A stretch of DNA of 64,000 nucleotides, from contig NZ_CP026121.1 in assembly GCF_003330845.1 (NCBI RefSeq), positions 3,639,501 through 3,703,500 of the forward strand, in the 5' to 3' direction. Every line of letters begins with the position of its first letter. Position 1 is the first letter of the stretch. The DNA is from Streptomyces sp. Go-475 (GTDB lineage Bacteria > Actinomycetota > Actinomycetes > Streptomycetales > Streptomycetaceae). The notes beneath the pieces are model-generated. The model was not told the DNA's origin, searched no databases, and worked only from the letters and a program-made list of their open reading frames with translations. The translations under genes were made by a program, and so were the position numbers. Positions 1,356-38,848 of this stretch are shown here, piece after piece.

Positions 1356-2953
1356 GCCGCGCTCCCCTCCGCCTCGGCCGGCGCCGTGCCGCCGCGCCGG
1401 AAGCCGACGAAGACGGCGGCGATCACGGCGGCGGTCACGCAGGCGGCGGCGGTGAGGATCAGTCCGTTGTTGTAGCCGTGGGCCAGGGCGTCCGTGGTGT
1501 AGGGGGCGAGCTTGGCGCTGAGCGGCCCGAGGTCGGCGGTGTGCAGGGCCAGCGGGCCACCTTCGTGGAGGACGGCGGAGGCGATGCCGTGCTCCTTGGG
1601 GGTCAGTCCGGCGTTCGCGAGGCTGCCGGTGAGCTGGCTCGCGGCCATGCCGAGGGCGAGGGCGCCGACGACGGCCGGGCCGAGGGTCTGGCCGAGGTCG
1701 CGGACCAGGCTGGTGGTGGCCGCCGCCATGCCGGTCAGGTTCTGCGGTACGACGTTGACGGCGGCGGCGGTGATCGCGGCGACGACCAGGCCGAAACCGA
1801 CGCCGTTCAGGATCAGCGGGCCCAGCATGGGCAGCAGAGCGGTCTCGTGGATCGGCAGCGCCCGCAGCCACAGCTGGCCCGCGGCCATCGCCAGGAAGCC
1901 GGTGACGAGCATGGGGCCGGGCCCGATGCGGTGCAGCAGGCGGACCAGCAGGGGCCAGATGAACGGCGTGCACGCCTGGATGATCATGACCGGTATCGCG
2001 GCCTCGAAGGGGCCCTGGTGCTGGATGACACCGAGGCGGATGCTCAGGTCGTACGCGCCGCCGAGGAAGCCCAGCATGCCGATCACCGCCATGGCGGCGG
2101 ATGCGGCGAACGCCGGGATGCGGAAGAGGGTCAGCCGCAGCATCGGGGCCGCGCTGCGGTTCTCCACCACGACGAACGCGGCGATGAAGGCGGCGAAGGT
2201 GACGAAGGACGCGACGATGGGTGCCGAGCCCCAGCCGTCCGAGGGGCCTTGGATGATGCCGTACAGCAGGGCGAGCATGGCCACGGCGATGGTGATCTGC
2301 CCGGGCCAGTCCAGCGAGCGGCCCTCCGGGGCGCTGGACTCGGTGGCGAGCAGCCAGGCCGCGGCGGCGGTGATCACGGCGAGCACGCCGGTCACGCCGA
2401 ACGCCCACTGGAACGGCGCGTGTTCGACGATGCCGCCGGACATGAGCGGGGCGAGGAAGGCGCCGAGCGACAGGGCTGTGGTCCAGGAGGCCAGGCCCCT
2501 GGCGCGTGCGGCCGGGGTGGTCGTGATCGCGGTGATCATCGTCAGGGAGGCGGGGAAGAGCGCGGCGGCCCCGATGCCGGAGACCGCCTGGCCGGTGATC
2601 AGCTGGGCCGGGGTGTCGGAGGTGGCGGACACCAGGTAGCCGACGGCGGCCAGCAGCGCCGCGCCGACGACGAGTTTCTTACGGCCGTAGCGGTCGCCCA
2701 CGACGCCGAAGGTCAGGGCGAGGACGGCGGCGGGCACCAGGAAGGCGTCACTGATCCAGGTCAGTTCCGCGCCGGACGTGTGGAGCGTGCGCTGCATCTC
2801 GCCGTTGATCGCGGCGGGCAGCACCAGGCCGATCTGGGCCAGGCAGACGGCCAGACAGCCGGCGATGATCGTGCCGGTGTGGCGTGCCGCAGCGGCCGGT
2901 GCGGCGTCGGAGGGCGGGGCGGCGGGTGGGTCGTAGGCAGGGGTGGAGACCAT
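1352..2953 (-). CDS. MFS transporter, DHA2 (14-helix) drug-exporter type
   Basis: This 533-residue integral membrane protein belongs to the proton-driven major facilitator superfamily. Motif A lies between helices 2 and 3 (GVVGDRYGRKK), and the motif-C-like stretch ALSLGAFLAPLMSGG in helix 5 is typical of drug:H+ antiporters. Length and hydrophobicity fit 14 helices. The N-terminus is a short Ala/Pro-rich cytoplasmic tail. The GGAGG upstream of ATG 2953 supports the start. It lies between the MBL-fold hydrolase gene (73 bp away) and the FAH gene (4-bp overlap). Divergent TetR control with a nearby dyad suggests efflux induced by its own substrate. Confidence 0.88.
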   Translation of the reverse strand: MVSTPAYDPPAAPPSDAAPAAAARHTGTIIAGCLAVCLAQIGLVLPAAINGEMQRTLHTSGAELTWISDAFLVPAAVLALTFGVVGDRYGRKKLVVGAALLAAVGYLVSATSDTPAQLITGQAVSGIGAAALFPASLTMITAITTTPAARARGLASWTTALSLGAFLAPLMSGGIVEHAPFQWAFGVTGVLAVITAAAAWLLATESSAPEGRSLDWPGQITIAVAMLALLYGIIQGPSDGWGSAPIVASFVTFAAFIAAFVVVENRSAAPMLRLTLFRIPAFAASAAMAVIGMLGFLGGAYDLSIRLGVIQHQGPFEAAIPVMIIQACTPFIWPLLVRLLHRIGPGPMLVTGFLAMAAGQLWLRALPIHETALLPMLGPLILNGVGFGLVVAAITAAAVNVVPQNLTGMAAATTSLVRDLGQTLGPAVVGALALGMAASQLTGSLANAGLTPKEHGIASAVLHEGGPLALHTADLGPLSAKLAPYTTDALAHGYNNGLILTAAACVTAAVIAAVFVGFRRGGTAPAEAEGSAA

Positions 2954-3026
2954 GTCTCCTCCTTGGAGGGGTTGGCGGGTCGTGCGGCCCGAGGGGGACG
3001 GAGGGACGTTGGTGCGGGGAGCGGCG

Positions 3027-3965
3027 TCAGAGGCTGGGGCAGAGTTCGGCCATGCAGCCGAACAGGCCGGGGCCGTCGAGCGGGGGCAGTGAGGGGTCGA
3101 GCTCCCGGTAGACGGTGTGCACGTTGACGGCGAGGCGTTCGCTCTCGTCCAGGTCGGCGAAGCGGCCCAGGCGGATGTCGCGTGCCGCGTCCATGGCGGG
3201 CATGCCGGCGGTGAAGCGGGCGGTGGCCTGCTCGTGGACGTATTCGAGGTAGTCGCGGATCTCGCGGACGGCCTGCTTGGTGGTGACGGGGCCGTGGCCG
3301 GGTACGACGATGTCGGCGTCGAGGCCCAGGAGGAGGTCGCAGGCGGCGAGCCAGCGGGCGAAGGGGCCGTGCCAGACGACCGGCGCCGCTCCGGCGAAGA
3401 CGATGTCGCCGGTGTAGACGGTCCGGGCCCGCGGCACGTGGACGATCGTGTCGCCGGCGCTGTGCGCGGGGCCCACGTCGATGAGGCGGACCTCCGTCCC
3501 GCCGATGTGGAGAACGGTCTCGCCGTCGAAGACCCGGTGCGGCAGGACGGGTTCGATGCCGGTGTGGTCGAAGCGGCCGAAGATCCGGCGGGCGAAGCGT
3601 CCGGCCGGGCCGTCCATGCCGGTCAGCGCCCGCATCTCGGCGGGGCCCACCTGCCGCATGTCCGTCACGGACCCGCGGGCCGCGATGATCTCGGCGTGGG
3701 CCACGAGCTGGTTGCCGAACCAGTGGTCGCCGTTGCCGTGGGTGTTGACCACGGTGGAGATCGGTGCCGGGGCGGTCAGGGGCGTCAGCGCGTCGAGCAT
3801 GGTCTTGGTCAGCCGCAGGTCGTAGAGGGTGTCGACGAGCAGTGACGCGCCCCGGCCGGTGATCAGCCCGGCGTTGCTCATGCCCCATCCGGCGTCGCCC
3901 GCGATCCAGGCGTAACAGCCGTGTCCGAGCTCGACACAGCCCGTACGGGTTGTCACGGAAGCCAC
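3027..3965 (-). CDS. MBL-fold metallo-hydrolase
   Basis: A 312-residue metallo-beta-lactamase superfamily enzyme, predicted cytoplasmic with a dinuclear zinc (or iron) site. The canonical HxHxDH motif appears as H76-G-N-G-D80-H81, the NTHGNGDHxxGN variant in which the second histidine is Asn. Other ligands are visible: H168 (GPAHSAGD), D187 (YTGDIVF) and H224 (VPGHGPV). It is the first gene of the operon and starts at ATG 3965, facing the TetR gene. The missing histidine may change metal occupancy. The family includes lactonases, thioesterases and sulfatases, so the reaction cannot be fixed. With the FAH enzyme and exporter it probably detoxifies or degrades a single compound. Confidence 0.85.
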   Translation of the reverse strand: MASVTTRTGCVELGHGCYAWIAGDAGWGMSNAGLITGRGASLLVDTLYDLRLTKTMLDALTPLTAPAPISTVVNTHGNGDHWFGNQLVAHAEIIAARGSVTDMRQVGPAEMRALTGMDGPAGRFARRIFGRFDHTGIEPVLPHRVFDGETVLHIGGTEVRLIDVGPAHSAGDTIVHVPRARTVYTGDIVFAGAAPVVWHGPFARWLAACDLLLGLDADIVVPGHGPVTTKQAVREIRDYLEYVHEQATARFTAGMPAMDAARDIRLGRFADLDESERLAVNVHTVYRELDPSLPPLDGPGLFGCMAELCPSL

Positions 3966-4048
3966 GTTGCCTCCTTGTCGGCGTCCAGCGCGATCAGAGC
4001 CCGATCAGCAGCGCTGACAGCAGCACGATCAGCACGCCAGACTTGCAT

Positions 4049-4076
4049 CCATTGCTGGACTTGAGTCCAACAATGG
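4049..4076. promoter_or_regulatory. Putative TetR operator (28-bp dyad)
   Basis: The half-sites are CCATTGCTGGACT and AGTCCAACAATGG around a central TG. Twelve of the 13 positions in each arm pair. The dyad lies in the 176-bp space between the divergent MBL-hydrolase and TetR genes. A TTGAGT at 4061-4066 inside it and a TAGATA at 4086-4091 could be the TetR promoter (19-bp spacer), so a bound repressor would block that promoter and probably the other one. Position and symmetry are seen in the sequence; binding is inferred. Confidence 0.75.
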
Positions 4077-4141
4077 AGAGGAATCTAGATAGGTGCCGGG
4101 AACGGGTCAAGAGGTGTGCGGCCCTGTGTTGTACTGGGGCC

Positions 4142-4804
4142 ATGAAGATCCGGGACGCGGCAGCCGCCTCCGGGGGCGGCCCGACCGTCGGGCGCCAGGA
4201 GCGCAGGCGCAGGAAGCTGCACGACCAGCTGTTCGAGACGGCGGTCGGCCTCTTCGTCGCCCAGGGATACGAGGCGACCACCATGGAGCAGATCGCGGAG
4301 GCCGCCGATGTGGCCCGGGCCACGGTCTTCAACCACTTCTCGCAGAAGGTCGGCTTCCTCGAGGAATGGGGAGTCCGCCGCCGCGCCCGCGTCGCTGAGA
4401 TCCTCGGCGCGGAGCACGCCGAGGACCTGCCGGTCGGCGACCGGCTGCGCCGGTACCTGAAGGAGATGGGCGACCTCAACGTCGCATCCCGTGCGGAGAC
4501 CACCGTCCTGATGGACGCCTCGGCGCGGTACGGGCACCTCCTGCAGGACCCGTCCCTGGACATCGAACTCGCCAGGATCGTCGAGCAGGGGCGGCAACGC
4601 GGGGAGATCAGGGCGGGCGTCGACTGCGACCAGGCCGGCCAGCTGCTGGCCGCCTGCTACTTCTCGACGATCCTGCGCTGGATCCGCGAGGAACCGGCCC
4701 CCTTCGACCTGCACGAGCGCCTCGCCGGGGCGCTCGACATCATCCTGCTGGGCCTTCTCGCCGAGGGTTCGCATCCTGCCGGGGGCACGACGCAATCGGT
4801 CTGA
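4142..4804 (+). CDS. TetR/AcrR family transcriptional regulator
   Basis: A 220-residue repressor. Residues about 20-75 form the TetR helix-turn-helix, including TTMEQIAEAADVARATVFNHFSQK with the typical T-[FY]-x-[YH]-F recognition helix. The remaining helices form the ligand-binding and dimerisation domain. I chose ATG 4142; the open frame continues upstream to 3950 but would run through the 28-bp operator. It is transcribed away from the MBL/MFS/FAH operon, so it most likely represses both itself and that operon until an inducer binds. Confidence 0.88.
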   Translation: MKIRDAAAASGGGPTVGRQERRRRKLHDQLFETAVGLFVAQGYEATTMEQIAEAADVARATVFNHFSQKVGFLEEWGVRRRARVAEILGAEHAEDLPVGDRLRRYLKEMGDLNVASRAETTVLMDASARYGHLLQDPSLDIELARIVEQGRQRGEIRAGVDCDQAGQLLAACYFSTILRWIREEPAPFDLHERLAGALDIILLGLLAEGSHPAGGTTQSV

Positions 4805-4823: not shown

Positions 4824-4863
4824 AGGCGTGGCGTTCCGCTCGGCCTCGGGCTCCTCGTCCGGG

Positions 4864-5163
4864 TCAGGGCGCGGCGATGTCGCCGAGCGCGTTCCGTACG
4901 TCCTCGAAGAGCCGGAACAGGTCGCGCCGGGGTGCGATGTGCAGCTCGTCCGCCTGCCATACGGTGAACGCCACGAGCGGATGGGTGGCGAGAGCGTCGA
5001 GGTCGGCGGCCGCCGGGTCGCGCAGCCGGAACCGGAGGCGGACGAAGCAGTGCGTCAGCCGGGTGACGTTCTCCCGGCCGCCCACCCCCCGCAGGATGGC
5101 GTCCGCGGCGTGGTCGCCGTCCTGCGTCGCGTCCGCGGCGTGGTCGCCGCTAGACGTCGACAC
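4864..5163 (-). CDS. Stand-alone PTS EIIB-like domain protein
   Basis: A 99-residue protein resembling the EIIB domain of glucose/beta-glucoside permeases. The stretch ILRGVGGRENVTRLTHCFVRLRF matches the phospho-cysteine region (normally HCATRLRF), with the cysteine at residue 39. There is no membrane domain or EIIA part. The gene's first 14 bases overlap the end of the antiterminator gene, so both are co-translated, and a complete EIIB already exists in the permease of the same operon. Since EIIB domains phosphorylate the first PRD of LicT/BglG proteins, I infer a dedicated regulatory phosphate donor or sink. The N-terminus contains a duplicated GDHAADA from a DNA repeat and may be disordered. 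An alternative is a decaying permease fragment. Confidence 0.7.
   Translation of the reverse strand: MSTSSGDHAADATQDGDHAADAILRGVGGRENVTRLTHCFVRLRFRLRDPAAADLDALATHPLVAFTVWQADELHIAPRRDLFRLFEDVRNALGDIAAP
5099..5149. repeat. Direct repeat (21 bp, period 30 bp)
   Basis: A 21-bp unit containing GTCCGCGGCGTGGTCGCCG occurs at 5099 and again at 5129. It encodes the GDHAADA duplication at the N-terminus of the EIIB-like protein. Confidence 0.85.
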
Positions 5164-6013
5164 GATCGCCCTCCGACCTGTCCGGCTGTGCCGTCAGACG
5201 GCTGACGTGCAGCGCGAGGTAGAGGATCTCCTCCCGGCCGACCTGCCAGTCGAACAGCTCCTCCATCCGGCGGGCCAGCCGCTCGGCGCAGGCGTACTCC
5301 AGCGGCCTGGCGTTCCTGACGGCTTCGCCGATCTGGTCGTCGGCCGCGCGGGCCTGCTTGCCGTCCCGGGCGCGCAGGAAGAGGTAGCGCAGATGCGTGA
5401 TGAACCGCGCCGCGTCCAGCGAGCGCTGGTCGATGGCGACTCCGAGGTCCTCACCGATCGTCTCGAGCGCGACCCTCAGCCATTGCGTCATCTGCATGGT
5501 CGCCGCGATGTCGCCGGATCCGATCTGCGCGTTGACGAAGTGGAGGGCCAGCGGCAGCGCCTCGGTCTCGTCCAGCCGCACCCCGAGCCGGCGCTCGATG
5601 ATCTCCAGGGCGGCCGCGCCCATCTCCGTCTCCGCCGGATAGAGGTTCTCGATCTCCCACTTGAGCGGGTACTCGATCAGGGCTCCGGTCCGGGCGCGGG
5701 CGAGGGCGAAATGGACGTGGTCGGCCAGGGGCAGCAGGATGTGCTCGCTGATCTTCTCGCCGAGCCGCCCCCGGGCAGCGGCGACGACCTCTTCCATGAC
5801 CTCGATCACACCGAGCGGGATCTCGGCGGCCAGGGCGGCGAGGCGTTCGGCGGGCATCGTCTTCGCCACGAACCGGCGCTCGGCGCGGCCGGTGTCCACG
5901 ACTTCTCCCGGCTTGACCTGGAAACCGATCCCCCGCCCCATGAGCACGGTTTCGGCACCGTGCTCGTCGACGCCGAGCACGACGTTGTTGTTGAAGACTT
6001 TTTTCACGCGCAT
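5150..6013 (-). CDS. BglG/LicT family RNA-binding transcriptional antiterminator
   Basis: A 287-residue protein with the three LicT domains in order: a CAT RNA-binding domain (residues 1-57, including the diagnostic FNNNVVL), PRD1 (about 65-170) and PRD2 (about 172-280). The phosphorylation histidines are in register with LicT: H99 and H158 in PRD1, H207 and H269 in PRD2. Known family members bind a RAT hairpin and stop an overlapping terminator from forming; EIIB phosphate on PRD1 inhibits them and HPr phosphate on PRD2 activates them. Here two RATs (9709-9737 and 9902-9932) lie upstream of the PTS permease and of HPr, the obvious targets. It is the third gene of the permease operon, so it should raise its own level. 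Confidence 0.93.
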   Translation of the reverse strand: MRVKKVFNNNVVLGVDEHGAETVLMGRGIGFQVKPGEVVDTGRAERRFVAKTMPAERLAALAAEIPLGVIEVMEEVVAAARGRLGEKISEHILLPLADHVHFALARARTGALIEYPLKWEIENLYPAETEMGAAALEIIERRLGVRLDETEALPLALHFVNAQIGSGDIAATMQMTQWLRVALETIGEDLGVAIDQRSLDAARFITHLRYLFLRARDGKQARAADDQIGEAVRNARPLEYACAERLARRMEELFDWQVGREEILYLALHVSRLTAQPDRSEGDRVDV

Positions 6014-6157
6014 CGTGTGGAGTCCTTGCTGGCCGGGCCCCCGGGGCAGGGTACCTGGCCTTCGCTCCGGCCCGGCCCTGGCGCGTGGCCGGTGCGGCCG
6101 CGGGGGCTGTGGTCTTCTCCTCGCCGCGGAGGTTGTGGTCGTCCCGCGCCGCAGGGG

Positions 6158-9575
<3,418 letters not shown>

Positions 9576-9651
9576 GGCTCCTCCTCGAGCCCCGCTGTCC
9601 TGGAACCGCGTGCCGACCGTCGTGCCGACCGTCGTGCCGATCTTCGGCAAC

Positions 9652-9710
9652 AAAAAAACCCAAGCCGTGACCCTGCGAGCCGCTTGGAAAGCGGCGGGTC
9701 TCAGCTTGGG
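9652..9710 (-). terminator. Leader terminator of the PTS operon (antitermination target)
   Basis: Read on the minus strand, CCCAAGCT pairs with GGCTTGGG around an inner stem (GCCGCTT/AAGCGGC), followed by seven Ts (9658-9652). Its upstream arm overlaps the RAT at 9709-9737, so RAT and terminator are mutually exclusive. It lies 77 bp upstream of the permease start. Confidence 0.9.
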
Positions 9711-9737
9711 TTTTGCCTGTGGTCCAGTAACAATCCC
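9709..9737 (-). promoter_or_regulatory. RAT (ribonucleic antiterminator), permease leader
   Basis: On the minus strand the element begins GGGATTGTTACTG, then a short loop, and ends CAGGCAAAACC. This matches the LicT/SacY-class RAT pattern GGATTGTTACTG-N-GCAGGCAAAACC almost base for base. Its 3' end forms the first arm of the leader terminator. The antiterminator encoded at 5150-6013 should bind here. Confidence 0.93.
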
Positions 9738-9746
9738 AGCTTTGGT

Positions 9747-9767
9747 AAGACGCCCTTGGGGTGTCTT
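9747..9767 (-). other. Small hairpin at the 5' end of the PTS leader RNA
   Basis: AAGACACC (minus strand) pairs with GGCGTCTT across CCAAG, with one wobble pair. It begins about two bases after the predicted transcription start and precedes the RAT, so it may protect the 5' end of the leader RNA. Confidence 0.45.
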
Positions 9768-9775
9768 GGGGCGAG

Positions 9776-9805
9776 ACAGTAGACGCCGTCTTTCACGACT
9801 GTCCA
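9776..9805 (-). promoter_or_regulatory. Predicted promoter of the PTS operon
   Basis: On the minus strand, TGGACA (9805-9800) and TACTGT (9781-9776) are 18 bp apart, as for a housekeeping sigma factor. Start of transcription would be near 9769, about 30 nt before the RAT. Confidence 0.65.
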
Positions 9806-9862
9806 GACGCTGGGCATCACATTTTTCCGCCGGGTGATCCATAGGGTGTGGCGGTCGTCTCA

Positions 9863-9892
9863 TTGACGCCTGGGCGGATACGCGGCTAGCGT
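9863..9892 (+). promoter_or_regulatory. Predicted promoter of the HPr gene
   Basis: TTGACG (9863-9868) and TAGCGT (9887-9892) are separated by 18 bp. The expected transcription start near 9899 falls only a few bases before the RAT at 9902, so the leader RNA would begin almost with the RAT. Confidence 0.75.
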
Positions 9893-9901
9893 GCGCGACA
9901 C

Positions 9902-9932
9902 GGATTGTGACCGGCGTGAGCCGGGCAAGACC
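9902..9932 (+). promoter_or_regulatory. RAT (ribonucleic antiterminator), HPr leader
   Basis: The element runs from GGATTGTGACCGG through a short loop to CCGGGCAAGACC. It keeps the GGATTG...GGCAA.ACC core of LicT-class RATs with a longer closing stem. Its end overlaps the first arm of the terminator at 9928-9975. It is the second RAT in this divergent region. Confidence 0.85.
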
Positions 9933-9975
9933 TGGGACGAGTTGCCTTGAGGCGACCGCTCCCGGGTCTTTTTTT
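9928..9975 (+). terminator. Leader terminator of the HPr gene (antitermination target)
   Basis: AGACCTGGGA pairs with TCCCGGGTCT (one T-G wobble) around an inner GTTGCC/GGCGAC stem, and seven Ts follow (9969-9975). Its first five bases lie in the RAT. It stands 91 bp upstream of the HPr start codon. Confidence 0.9.
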
Positions 9976-10066
9976 ATGCGTCGACCGGTCCGGCATTGAC
10001 GGACCTCTTCCCTTTTCCGACTCCGTGAAATGACGGCGCATACGCAATGGAACCCAAGGAGTGGAA

Positions 10067-10339
10067 ATGCCGGAACGCTACGCGACCGTCCAATGCTCGC
10101 GGGGACTGCACGCCCGCCCTGCGGCCGCCCTCGCCCGGGAGGCCGCGGCGACGAGCCATCGCATCACCATTCGCAGACCCGACGGCAACCCGGTACCGGC
10201 GAGCAGCACGCTCATGGTGCTGAGTCTGGGCCTCAAGGAGGGCGAGAAGGTCATTCTCACCTCCGACGACGAGACAGCCGGCCCCGCACTCGACCAGCTG
10301 GCAGCCCTTCTCGCCACGGACCTCGACGCACAGGGATGA
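10067..10339 (+). CDS. HPr-family phosphocarrier protein
   Basis: A 90-residue HPr, exactly the family length. The phosphohistidine is H15 in GLHARPAAA and the regulatory-site serine is S46 in PASSTLMVLSLG. It should pass phosphate from EI to the EIIA domain of the neighbouring permease and to PRD2 of the antiterminator. I chose ATG 10067, five bases after AAGGAG; a GTG at 10061 overlaps that ribosome site. The gene has its own promoter, RAT and terminator, so its expression is probably induced together with the permease. Since Streptomyces needs a general HPr elsewhere, this is likely a second, pathway-dedicated copy. Confidence 0.93.
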   Translation: MPERYATVQCSRGLHARPAAALAREAAATSHRITIRRPDGNPVPASSTLMVLSLGLKEGEKVILTSDDETAGPALDQLAALLATDLDAQG

Positions 10340-10347
10340 CCCCCTAC

Positions 10348-13797: not shown

Positions 13798-14406
13798 ATG
13801 GGCAGGGTCATCTGTGACATCACCGTCTCGGTCGACGGCTATGCGGCGGGGGTCGGCCAGAGCGAGGAACGGCCGTTCGGTGCCGACGGCGGAGACGGGA
13901 CCGGGAACAGGCTGCACGCCTGGATGTTCGAGACTCCCGACGAGAACCGGGCCGAGGTCGAGGCGATGACCGCCGCCGGGGCCTTCGTCATGGGGCGGAA
14001 CATGTTCGGCCCGGTGCGGGGTGCCTGGGACCGGCGGTGGAACGGCTGGTGGGGCGGCGATCCGCCGTTCCACGCGCCGGTGTTCGTACTGACCCATCAC
14101 CCGCGTGAGCCGGAGCCGATGGACGGCGGCACGACGTACCACTTCGTCACCGACGGGATCGCGTCGGCGCTGGAGCGGGCGCGTGCGGCGGCCGGTGGCG
14201 GCGATGTCCTGGTCCTCGGCGGCGCGACCACCGTCAACCAGTACCTCGCCGCCGGTCTGGTCGACGAGCTGCGGCTGCACATCGTGCCGCTCACGCTCGG
14301 CGCCGGCACGCGGTTGTTCGACGGCGTGCCCCCGCTGGACCTGGAGCAGGTGGCGTCGCGGTCGGCGAGGCAGGTCACCCACGTGCGCTACCGCGTGCTG
14401 TCCTGA
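13798..14406 (+). CDS. Dihydrofolate reductase / RibD C-terminal family protein
   Basis: A 202-residue soluble NADPH-dependent reductase of the RibD-C/DHFR-like family. ITVSVDGYAAG opens the fold, VMGRNMFGP is the central strand, and VLVLGGATTVNQYLAAGLVDELRLHIVP is the conserved C-terminal nucleotide-binding and dimer segment. A strong AGGAGG precedes ATG 13798. These small enzymes are common in Streptomyces and their substrates are mostly unknown. No neighbour points to folate or riboflavin synthesis. Confidence 0.82.
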   Translation: MGRVICDITVSVDGYAAGVGQSEERPFGADGGDGTGNRLHAWMFETPDENRAEVEAMTAAGAFVMGRNMFGPVRGAWDRRWNGWWGGDPPFHAPVFVLTHHPREPEPMDGGTTYHFVTDGIASALERARAAAGGGDVLVLGGATTVNQYLAAGLVDELRLHIVPLTLGAGTRLFDGVPPLDLEQVASRSARQVTHVRYRVLS

Positions 14407-14506
14407 GCCGCACGCGGGGGGAAGTACGACGACGGACGCGACAACTCCGCTCCGCGCGCGGGAAATTCCGTTGCCCGGGCCGGAGGGCGGTGGACACCCT
14501 TCCGGT

Positions 14507-15433
14507 ATGACCACGAGTTCTCCCGCCGACGGCCGTGCGGGTATCGACGCGGCGTTGGTGAGGCGGCTGATCGCCGCGCAGTTCCCGCAGTGGAGCCGTC
14601 TGAGCGTGACACCGGTCGAGGTCGACGGCTGGGACAACCGGACCTACCGGCTCGGCGAGACGATGACCGTGCGGCTGCCCACCGCCGAGCACTACGCCCC
14701 CGCCGTCGCCAAGGAAAACCGCTGGCTGCCGGTGCTCGCGCCGTCGCTGCCGGTCCCTGTTCCGCCGATCGTGGCGCGCGGCCGGCCCGGGGAAGGCTAT
14801 CCCTACGACTGGTCGGTCCGCGGCTGGCTGGACGGTGAGGTGGCCCGTCCCGAACGCATCGCCGACCTGCCGCGGTTCGCGGAGTCGGTGGCCGGGTTCC
14901 TCCGCGCCCTGTGGGCCGTCGACCCCACGGGCGGGCCGCCGGCCGGGGCGCACAGCTTCTACCGGGGCGCGCCGCCGGCCCACTACGACGACGAGACGCG
15001 CCGCGCCCTGGCGGCGCTCGCCGGACGCGTCGACACCGACCGGGCCGCCGCGGTGTGGGACGCGGCGCTGCGGGCGACCTGGCGGGGGCGGCCGGTCTGG
15101 TTCCACGGCGACGTCGCCGCCAACAACCTGCTGGTCAGGGACGGCGAGCTGGCCGCCGTCATCGACTTCGGCACCTCCGGTGTCGGGGATCCGGCCTGCG
15201 ATCTGGTGATCGCCTGGACGATGTTCACCGGCGACAGCCGCGAGGCGTTCCGCCGTGCCGTGGACCAGGACAGCTCTGCCTGGGCACGGGCGCGCGGGTG
15301 GGCGCTGTGGAAGGCCCTGATCTGCCTGGCGCGGGACATCGACACGGATGCCGAGGAGGCGGCCGTCCATCGCCGGGTCATCGACGAGGTCCTGGCCGTG
15401 AATTGGCGGTTAATCGGGGCTGACGGGCAATGA
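14507..15433 (+). CDS. Aminoglycoside phosphotransferase (APH) family protein
   Basis: A 308-residue kinase-like protein. WDNRTYRLGETMTVRLPT is the nucleotide-binding lobe. The catalytic loop is WFHGDVAANNLLV (Brenner motif HGD-x4-N), and the metal site is VIDFGTSGVGDPACDLV. I chose ATG 14507; an upstream frame to 14105 lies over the preceding gene. A CACCCT about six bases before the ATG suggests a leaderless mRNA. The family phosphorylates sugars or small hydroxylated compounds, and resistance cannot be claimed from sequence alone. Confidence 0.82.
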   Translation: MTTSSPADGRAGIDAALVRRLIAAQFPQWSRLSVTPVEVDGWDNRTYRLGETMTVRLPTAEHYAPAVAKENRWLPVLAPSLPVPVPPIVARGRPGEGYPYDWSVRGWLDGEVARPERIADLPRFAESVAGFLRALWAVDPTGGPPAGAHSFYRGAPPAHYDDETRRALAALAGRVDTDRAAAVWDAALRATWRGRPVWFHGDVAANNLLVRDGELAAVIDFGTSGVGDPACDLVIAWTMFTGDSREAFRRAVDQDSSAWARARGWALWKALICLARDIDTDAEEAAVHRRVIDEVLAVNWRLIGADGQ

Positions 15434-15530
15434 ACCATTGGAAATGGAGAGATCCCACCACACAACCAAACCCAATTCCCCGCCGTCACACCACATTGCG
15501 AGAACCATTCCCTTTCACGGAGGTTTTGCA

Positions 15531-38621: not shown

Positions 38622-38848
38622 CGGGAAGGGTCTCTGCTTCCTTGGTGATCAGGCCCTCGCACCGGGATGCCAGTCCCGGCGGGGGCCGTATTCGTTTGTT
38701 CGGTTGTCTGTGCCGACGGTGCACCACCGACTCCCCGCCACGCCAGCCGAGTTGGTGATGTTCACTCCTGCGGGTGAGCCGCGGGGGCGGTGGGGGCGGG
38801 TTGGTTCTTTCCCCGGTTCTTTGGTCTTTGGCGTCGGGACCGGCCGGG

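Follow-up and report, generated by a model that had tools for sequence, protein, structure and literature searches.

Two divergent RAT/terminator switches in a Streptomyces beta-glucoside PTS locus and their predicted control by one LicT-like antiterminator

Results

Two RAT/terminator switches point apart within the 491 bp that separate a minus-strand operon from a plus-strand gene in this Streptomyces genome (RAT, antiterminator-binding hairpin). We read the locus as a substrate-induced antitermination regulon with two arms under one LicT-like protein, a reading to which we give a probability of about 0.8. The window analyzed here, by which we mean the whole 64-kb stretch (72% G+C), carries the switches, each counted as RAT plus terminator, at positions 9736 to 9652 (minus strand) and 9902 to 9975 (plus strand). 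The intergenic region extends from 9576 to 10066, limits that are valid if the flanking genes start at 9575 (GTG) and 10067 (ATG). An initial annotation had described two oppositely facing antiterminator targets in this region; this observation is confirmed, with both RATs in place.

On the arm that leads into the transporter operon (EII arm), the RAT is 28 nt long (9736 to 9709, minus strand; GGATTGTTACTGGACCACAGGCAAAACC) with the upper stem CUG/CAG, and the intrinsic terminator (9714 to 9652, minus strand) has the 5' arm AAAACC in common with it. The RAT on the other arm (HPr arm) is 31 nt long (9902 to 9932, plus strand; GGATTGTGACCGGCGTGAGCCGGGCAAGACC) with a longer upper stem, CCGGC/GCCGG, and its terminator (9927 to 9975, plus strand) shares the 5' arm AAGACC. 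As proposed earlier, the 3' end of each RAT is the first arm of a terminator with a T7 tail; the last 6 bases of the RAT are shared on both arms. The A7 and T7 runs at the switch terminators are the only such runs in the window. Two minor features lie in the leaders: a 12-bp tandem repeat (GTGCCGACCGTC) at 9610 to 9640 of the EII leader, which is found in neither L004 nor L041, the two closely related loci described below, and a short terminator-like hairpin (9987 to 10005, plus strand) in the stretch that separates the HPr-arm terminator from the HPr gene, of a kind for which 0.7 would be expected by chance.

Folding indicates that RAT and terminator exclude each other. Left free, both leaders folded into the terminator (-42.1 kcal/mol on the minus arm and -41.5 kcal/mol on the plus arm); forcing the RAT cost 8.4 and 9.4 kcal/mol, respectively, and the hairpin that remained stopped short of the T tract. 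By folding, only one of the two overlapping structures can form on either arm. RAT plus terminator was more stable than shuffled sequences on the plus arm (9902 to 9975, z = -5.2) and on the minus arm (9645 to 9737, z = -4.7), as was the HPr-arm terminator (9926 to 9975; MFE, -30.8 kcal/mol; z = -6.5). The plus-arm RAT by itself folded at -13.2 kcal/mol (z = -2.9). The case for the minus-arm RAT rests on its sequence and conservation because its stability by itself (-3.9 kcal/mol) did not exceed that of shuffles (z = -0.1; 74 shuffles in 200 were as good).

The RATs had been assigned to the LicT/SacY class. Since a model that included the window's RATs would be circular, we rebuilt the covariance model (R2) from 16 RATs of other loci, all outside the window's own group (group A). 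In the 8.57-Mb genome, R2 scored the EII-arm RAT at 36.4 bits (E = 1.4e-6) and the HPr-arm RAT at 31.4 bits (E = 5.0e-5), which upholds the assignment, and it returned no further site up to E = 10 among the 150 first-look candidates, out of 3425, that were scored. With the window RATs included, the full model gave the same two sites.

Conserved sequence and a two-part stem are evident both from R2 and from an alignment (A2) of 20 RATs, to which the window and L004 contributed alongside further loci of actinobacteria and of Firmicutes or enteric bacteria. In A2, 95.0% of 180 cells are paired, and both sides of a pair have changed in 18 cells, against 7.1 ± 2.0 in shuffles and 0 to 5 in slid structures; further pair types did not exceed shuffles (101 of 500 shuffles reached the count). 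A fuzzy search for the outer motif supplied the sequences for A2, so that part of the conservation in helix 1 and in the first pair of helix 2 reflects this selection. The three upper-stem pairs (columns 11 to 13 with 26 to 28) are free of it and hold 17 of the 18 double-change cells; the window's two RATs differ from each other by such paired upper-stem changes. A2 used 10 of 17 Firmicute or enteric pattern matches, omitting those of L006 (2), L008 (2), and L009, one of three in L013, and the one in L014, as well as both L041 RATs, the enlarged RATs described below, and the degenerate RAT of L056.

At gathering thresholds, Rfam matched neither window RAT, nor did it match in three group B loci (the operons with enlarged RATs). 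A permissive scan with RF03530 (bglG-cis-reg) aligned the EII arm (9636 to 9751) across the whole model, 1 to 137, yet at 34.7 bits (E = 1.5e-4) against a gathering threshold of 80; the HPr arm gave no match. Permissive scans of the leaders of L050 (group B) and L099 (actinobacterial) gave no bglG-cis-reg match. Elsewhere in the window, at 38622 to 38841 (minus strand), lies the Streptomyces sRNA scr4677 (RF02673; 107.9 bits).

The EII-arm switch precedes a gene for a beta-glucoside EIIBCA transporter and sensor (634 aa; 7671 to 9575, minus strand) with Pfam EIIA, EIIC, and EIIB domains. Its TIGR01995 score of 615.2 bits lies barely above the cutoff of 614.7, and its substrate is a prediction. 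The following gene encodes a GH1, 6-phospho-beta-glucosidase-like enzyme (500 aa; 6158 to 7660, minus strand; PF00232, 452.7 bits), for which the best NCBIfam models are 6-phospho-beta-glucosidases, every one scoring below its cutoff. Third is a LicT-like CAT-PRD-PRD antiterminator (287 aa; 5150 to 6013, minus strand), which alone in the genome matches CAT_RBD and which has the domains of BglG/SacY proteins (PF03123, 70.1 bits, cutoff 25; PF00874 in two stretches, 101 bits, cutoff 23). By sequence, its nearest solved relatives are the BglG/LicT chains 6twr, 1tlv, 1h99, and 1l1c. The best of four antiterminator models was the NCBIfam LicT equivalog NF046042, at 253.9 bits below its cutoff of 300, and we therefore call the protein LicT-like rather than LicT by that model.

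Alignment bears out the earlier description of a LicT-like protein, encoded in the same operon, with all four PRD histidines. These are H99, H158, H207, and H269, which we take to correspond to LicT H100, H159, H207, and H269. All four are present in 120 of 120 homologues (the best 120 of 658), and at ten CAT positions the commonest residue occurs in 83 to 120 of the same 120. Overlapping the antiterminator stop codon is a gene for an orphan EIIB-like protein (99 aa; 4864 to 5163, minus strand; PF00367, 40.6 bits) with a catalytic-type cysteine, Cys39. All four group A loci that we inspected carry the orphan EIIB with its THC motif, and the cysteine is found in all 23 proteins retrieved, the window's included; those named by organism are all from Streptomyces.

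The plus-strand gene encodes an accessory HPr (90 aa; 10067 to 10339, plus strand) with a GLHARPA active site, His15, and, by eye, a AAGGAGTG ribosome-binding site; it matches PF00381 (71 bits) and TIGR01003 (65.3 bits, cutoff 47.9). The genome holds two HPr matches and one EI match, with EI elsewhere. The initial annotation had spoken of HPr itself being under a RAT, which does not hold: the gene is a second HPr, 47% identical over 87 aa to the housekeeping protein, the gene for which is 2.9 Mb away (G000:6507733), and the canonical ptsH locus (L001, 3.2 kb) gave no RAT match with model R1. The HPr proteins of the window, L004, and L041 form a separate long-branched clade apart from canonical ptsH in a tree of this short protein with weak resolution elsewhere. 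Given that clade and the 47% identity, we rejected a recent ptsH copy as the origin of the window's HPr.

Does an accessory HPr always mean antitermination? We chose 54 genomes, namely all 17 Streptomyces genomes with an antiterminator gene and 37 without; at least two HPr matches were present in 4 of the 17 and 7 of the 37, and we rejected this idea too. In one of these genomes (G019), the second match is weak with an in-frame stop, and in another (G257), the contig of the antiterminator carries neither HPr. What sets the window apart is the RAT and not the HPr paralogue. Still, HPr does turn up beside antiterminators: in L095, which belongs to a different family of the class, RAT, EII, antiterminator, and HPr follow one another in a single row, and in L056 HPr is divergent from the EII operon. 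The HPr side of L056 has no RAT match (R1) and no T run longer than 4 in the HPr direction. Of the 17 genomes, the 14 that remain (group B plus L046) gave no match in the stretches taken from them when queried with the window's or the canonical HPr. The link between HPr and antiterminator recurs but is not a rule. The L056 spacer between the EII and HPr starts reads, by eye, like the remnant of a second PRD antiterminator.

A promoter had been proposed for each RAT. A relaxed scan (TTGAC with one mismatch/TANNNT) found exactly one match upstream of each, and both candidates are kept in L004 and L041 (alignment, by eye; EII-arm spacing there, 17 to 18); the proposal stands to this extent. A strict sigma-70 scan of the region found no promoter upstream of either RAT. 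On the HPr arm, the likely vegetative promoter (9863 to 9892, plus strand) consists of TTGACG at 9863, an 18-nt spacer, and TAGCGT at 9887 to 9892, and its transcript would start a few bases ahead of the RAT. The likely EII-arm promoter (9805 to 9776, minus strand) consists of TGGACA at 9805, an 18-nt spacer, and TACTGT at 9781 to 9776. Between the EII-arm -10 element and the RAT lies an imperfect palindrome, AAGACGCCCTTGGGGTGTCTT (9747 to 9767), partly kept in L004 and L041 (by eye), a possible operator or leader hairpin.

The complete two-switch arrangement is present in three loci: the window, L004 (Streptomyces sp. A012304; antiterminator 90% identical), and L041 (84% identical). Both relatives share the layout with both RATs; in L005 (antiterminator 78% identical), the contig ends before the switch region. 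The EII-arm RAT is identical in L041 and has one change in L004, and the HPr-arm RAT has one loop change in each. Across the alignment of L004 and L041, both promoters, both RATs, and the outer stems of the terminators are kept, and the plus-arm spacer is not. The cassette as a whole (window, about 4863 to 10344; L004:3509-9121) is inverted in L004 relative to the flank at window positions 2728 to 4764 (about 94.6% identical), which suggests an inversion or a re-insertion.

In L041, the plus-arm switch is followed by genes for a Gfo/Idh/MocA oxidoreductase (13868 to 14896) and a histidine phosphatase (14893 to 15513) and only then by HPr. L004 keeps fragments of this stretch (72 nt at 81% and 45 nt at 76% identity), and in the window, where 91 nt lie behind the plus-arm switch, segments of 17 and 18 nt just before HPr match this part of L041. 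The simplest reading of these remains is a stepwise loss of the oxidoreductase and phosphatase genes with retention of HPr, and the window looks like the shortened form of a longer operon. The plus-arm switch might then serve chiefly the lost genes, the closeness of HPr being a by-product of deletion. We consider this unlikely, although it deserves weight: HPr is kept in all three loci, with its ribosome-binding site, and HPr also stands in the row of L095 and beside the EII operon in L056.

An unlikely alternative to the two-arm regulon, somewhat less probable still, is that only the EII arm is switched, the RAT of the HPr arm being vestigial or weak and HPr expression coming from leak or from another promoter. 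It would accord with B. subtilis, where ptsH is expressed mainly from its own promoter despite an upstream RAT (PMC12445079); with the absence of a RAT match on the HPr side of L056; with the restriction of the RF03530 match to the EII arm; and with the greater stability of the plus-arm RAT by itself (-13.2 versus -3.9 kcal/mol), which might make it less dependent on the protein. Against it, the RAT, terminator, and promoter of the plus arm are as conserved across the three loci as those of the minus arm, while the spacer behind them has changed, and the relaxed scan found no second TTGAC/TANNNT promoter between the HPr-arm terminator and HPr. If HPr indeed lacks a second promoter, the switch would govern it more directly than in B. 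subtilis.

A CAT_RBD gene is present in 17 of 392 Streptomyces genomes. The exact compact RAT pattern has 5 sites in 3 of the 392, all 3 with an antiterminator gene, and its reversed control has none among the matches listed. A long-insert RAT pattern occurs in 15 genomes, 13 of them within the 17, with control matches in two genomes. Altogether, a RAT pattern is present in 16 of the 17 genomes with an antiterminator gene versus 2 of the 375 without (Fisher P = 2.4e-25, a value that ignores relatedness and overstates certainty because related genomes are not independent). The two exceptions (G173 and G285) have long-RAT matches that look like chance on reading and are still counted. The search for RATs beside antiterminator genes that the initial annotation had suggested found its association, through the covariance model in this genome (2 sites) and the patterns in the 392. 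The seventeenth genome (G242, locus L056) has a degenerate RAT-like stretch before EII (model R1, 17.4 bits, E = 0.04).

That the hairpins are ordinary factor-independent terminators of neighboring genes, or chance repeats in GC-rich DNA, is strongly disfavored and in our estimate highly improbable: a simple terminator scan of 1.1 kb did list 3 sites with 0.7 expected, neither switch terminator among them, but both hairpins lie upstream of their genes with full RAT motifs, the only two sites in the genome are at this locus, and the reversed compact pattern had no match among those listed for the 392 genomes.

Beyond these genomes, a search across the class gave matches in 15 of 394 genomes, of which 4 had only weak ones (E > 1e-4), and contributed one extra Streptomyces (G638, locus L096); a search among relatives matched 4 of 199 and added none. 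Model R1 found no RAT match in the stretches taken around the antiterminator-like loci L094, L097, and L102. The antiterminator-like gene of L102 (9482 to 10220) is in two pieces in different frames with one in-frame stop and is probably broken.

Most of the remaining antiterminator loci belong to group B, with an enlarged RAT of 73 to 82 nt ahead of an EIIBC/EIIA-antiterminator operon in 13 of the 392 Streptomyces genomes (L042 to L045 and L047 to L055; for example, L050:7241-7321). L096 supplies a fourteenth, of 81 nt, by model match and reading, and L046 has a similar operon with a 37-nt RAT. In an alignment of the 13, 98.4% of 307 cells in the core and a nested apical stem can pair. Seven pairs have changed on both sides, against 3.3 ± 1.3 in shuffles (5 of 500 reach 7) and at most 1 in slid structures, a comparison favored by the structure having come from the very sequences tested; further pair types did not exceed shuffles. 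The enlarged RAT looks like an RNA domain added onto the antiterminator hairpin.

Discussion

PRD antitermination is a textbook mechanism of Firmicutes and enteric bacteria. The earlier proposal that the antiterminator encoded in one of the two divergent arms controls both, in the manner of LicT and SacY, is supported at the level of sequence, and the steps below are modeled on the biology of those proteins. In PRD antiterminators, phosphate from the transporter on PRD1 inactivates and HPr~P acting on PRD2 activates (PMC6148471). As long as no aryl-beta-glucoside or cellobiose-type sugar is available, EII~P would keep PRD1 phosphorylated and the antiterminator inactive, and both leader RNAs would stop at their terminators. 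With the sugar present, EII would pass its phosphate to the sugar, and the antiterminator would become active, with PRD2 phosphorylated by HPr~P. The CAT domain would bind the RAT on each nascent leader, the 5' arm of the terminator would be drawn into the RAT hairpin, and transcription would continue. The EII arm would then yield the transporter, the phospho-beta-glucosidase, the antiterminator, and the orphan EIIB, and the HPr arm would yield the accessory HPr, so that a phosphate carrier would be made alongside the transporter that needs it.

By the same analogy, feedback through HPr may be positive. The positive loop put forward in the initial annotation does not follow from the parts, because HPr~P also feeds EII, that is, the inactivating branch. 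A bolder extension of the two-arm regulon, which we hold only tentatively and think rather improbable, is a self-contained phosphorelay in which transporter and private HPr are made together and the orphan soluble EIIB serves PRD1 specifically, as a donor or a sink of phosphate. If true, the beta-glucoside PTS would operate in isolation from the housekeeping HPr and would have its own induction threshold, possibly with all-or-none induction.

The window resembles the LicT/bglPH, SacY, and SacT systems of B. subtilis in its CAT-PRD-PRD protein, in RAT sequence and fold, and in the overlap with a terminator (for SacT and SacY, PMC6148471), and it shares with LicT/bglPH the beta-glucoside EII and phospho-beta-glucosidase as targets. 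It differs from all three in having two divergent switches in one intergenic region, HPr behind one of them, an orphan EIIB, and an actinobacterial host; its relative L041 differs further in the oxidoreductase and phosphatase behind one switch. The GlcT/ptsGHI system of B. subtilis likewise has an HPr gene downstream of a RAT/terminator switch. There, ptsG comes first, and ptsHI has a strong promoter of its own, with the switch having little effect on ptsH (PMC12445079). The window, in contrast, has its accessory HPr first behind its own switch with no second promoter by the relaxed scan, and it lacks the GlcT-type order of ptsG, then ptsH and ptsI, behind one RAT.

The mechanism is a known one in a new arrangement: the pairing of the switches and their use in Streptomyces look new. 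The initial annotation had called such antitermination little described in Streptomyces, and in agreement with this we found no report among the papers that our literature searches listed, from which most subscription journals are absent. With a dedicated HPr first behind one switch, feedback through the carrier becomes testable, and the private HPr could be turned off without touching the housekeeping one.

The nearest parallel within the genus is group B (L042 to L055 except L046, plus L096), in which an EIIBC/EIIA-antiterminator operon likewise lies behind a RAT/terminator switch. Unlike the window, group B has one switch per genome by the patterns, an enlarged RAT of 73 to 82 nt with a structured apical part, and no HPr match in the stretches L042 to L055. 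The enlarged RAT is a second type within the streptomycetes, and with its large, covarying apical part it provides a naturally occurring variation on an RNA-protein switch that has been studied in depth. Directly before the RAT and after the -10 element, L042 to L055 (group B and L046) carry a near-palindrome, GATCGATCTCGATC, with small variants in some; the palindrome of the window at 9747 to 9767 differs from it yet occupies the same place, and both are possible operators.
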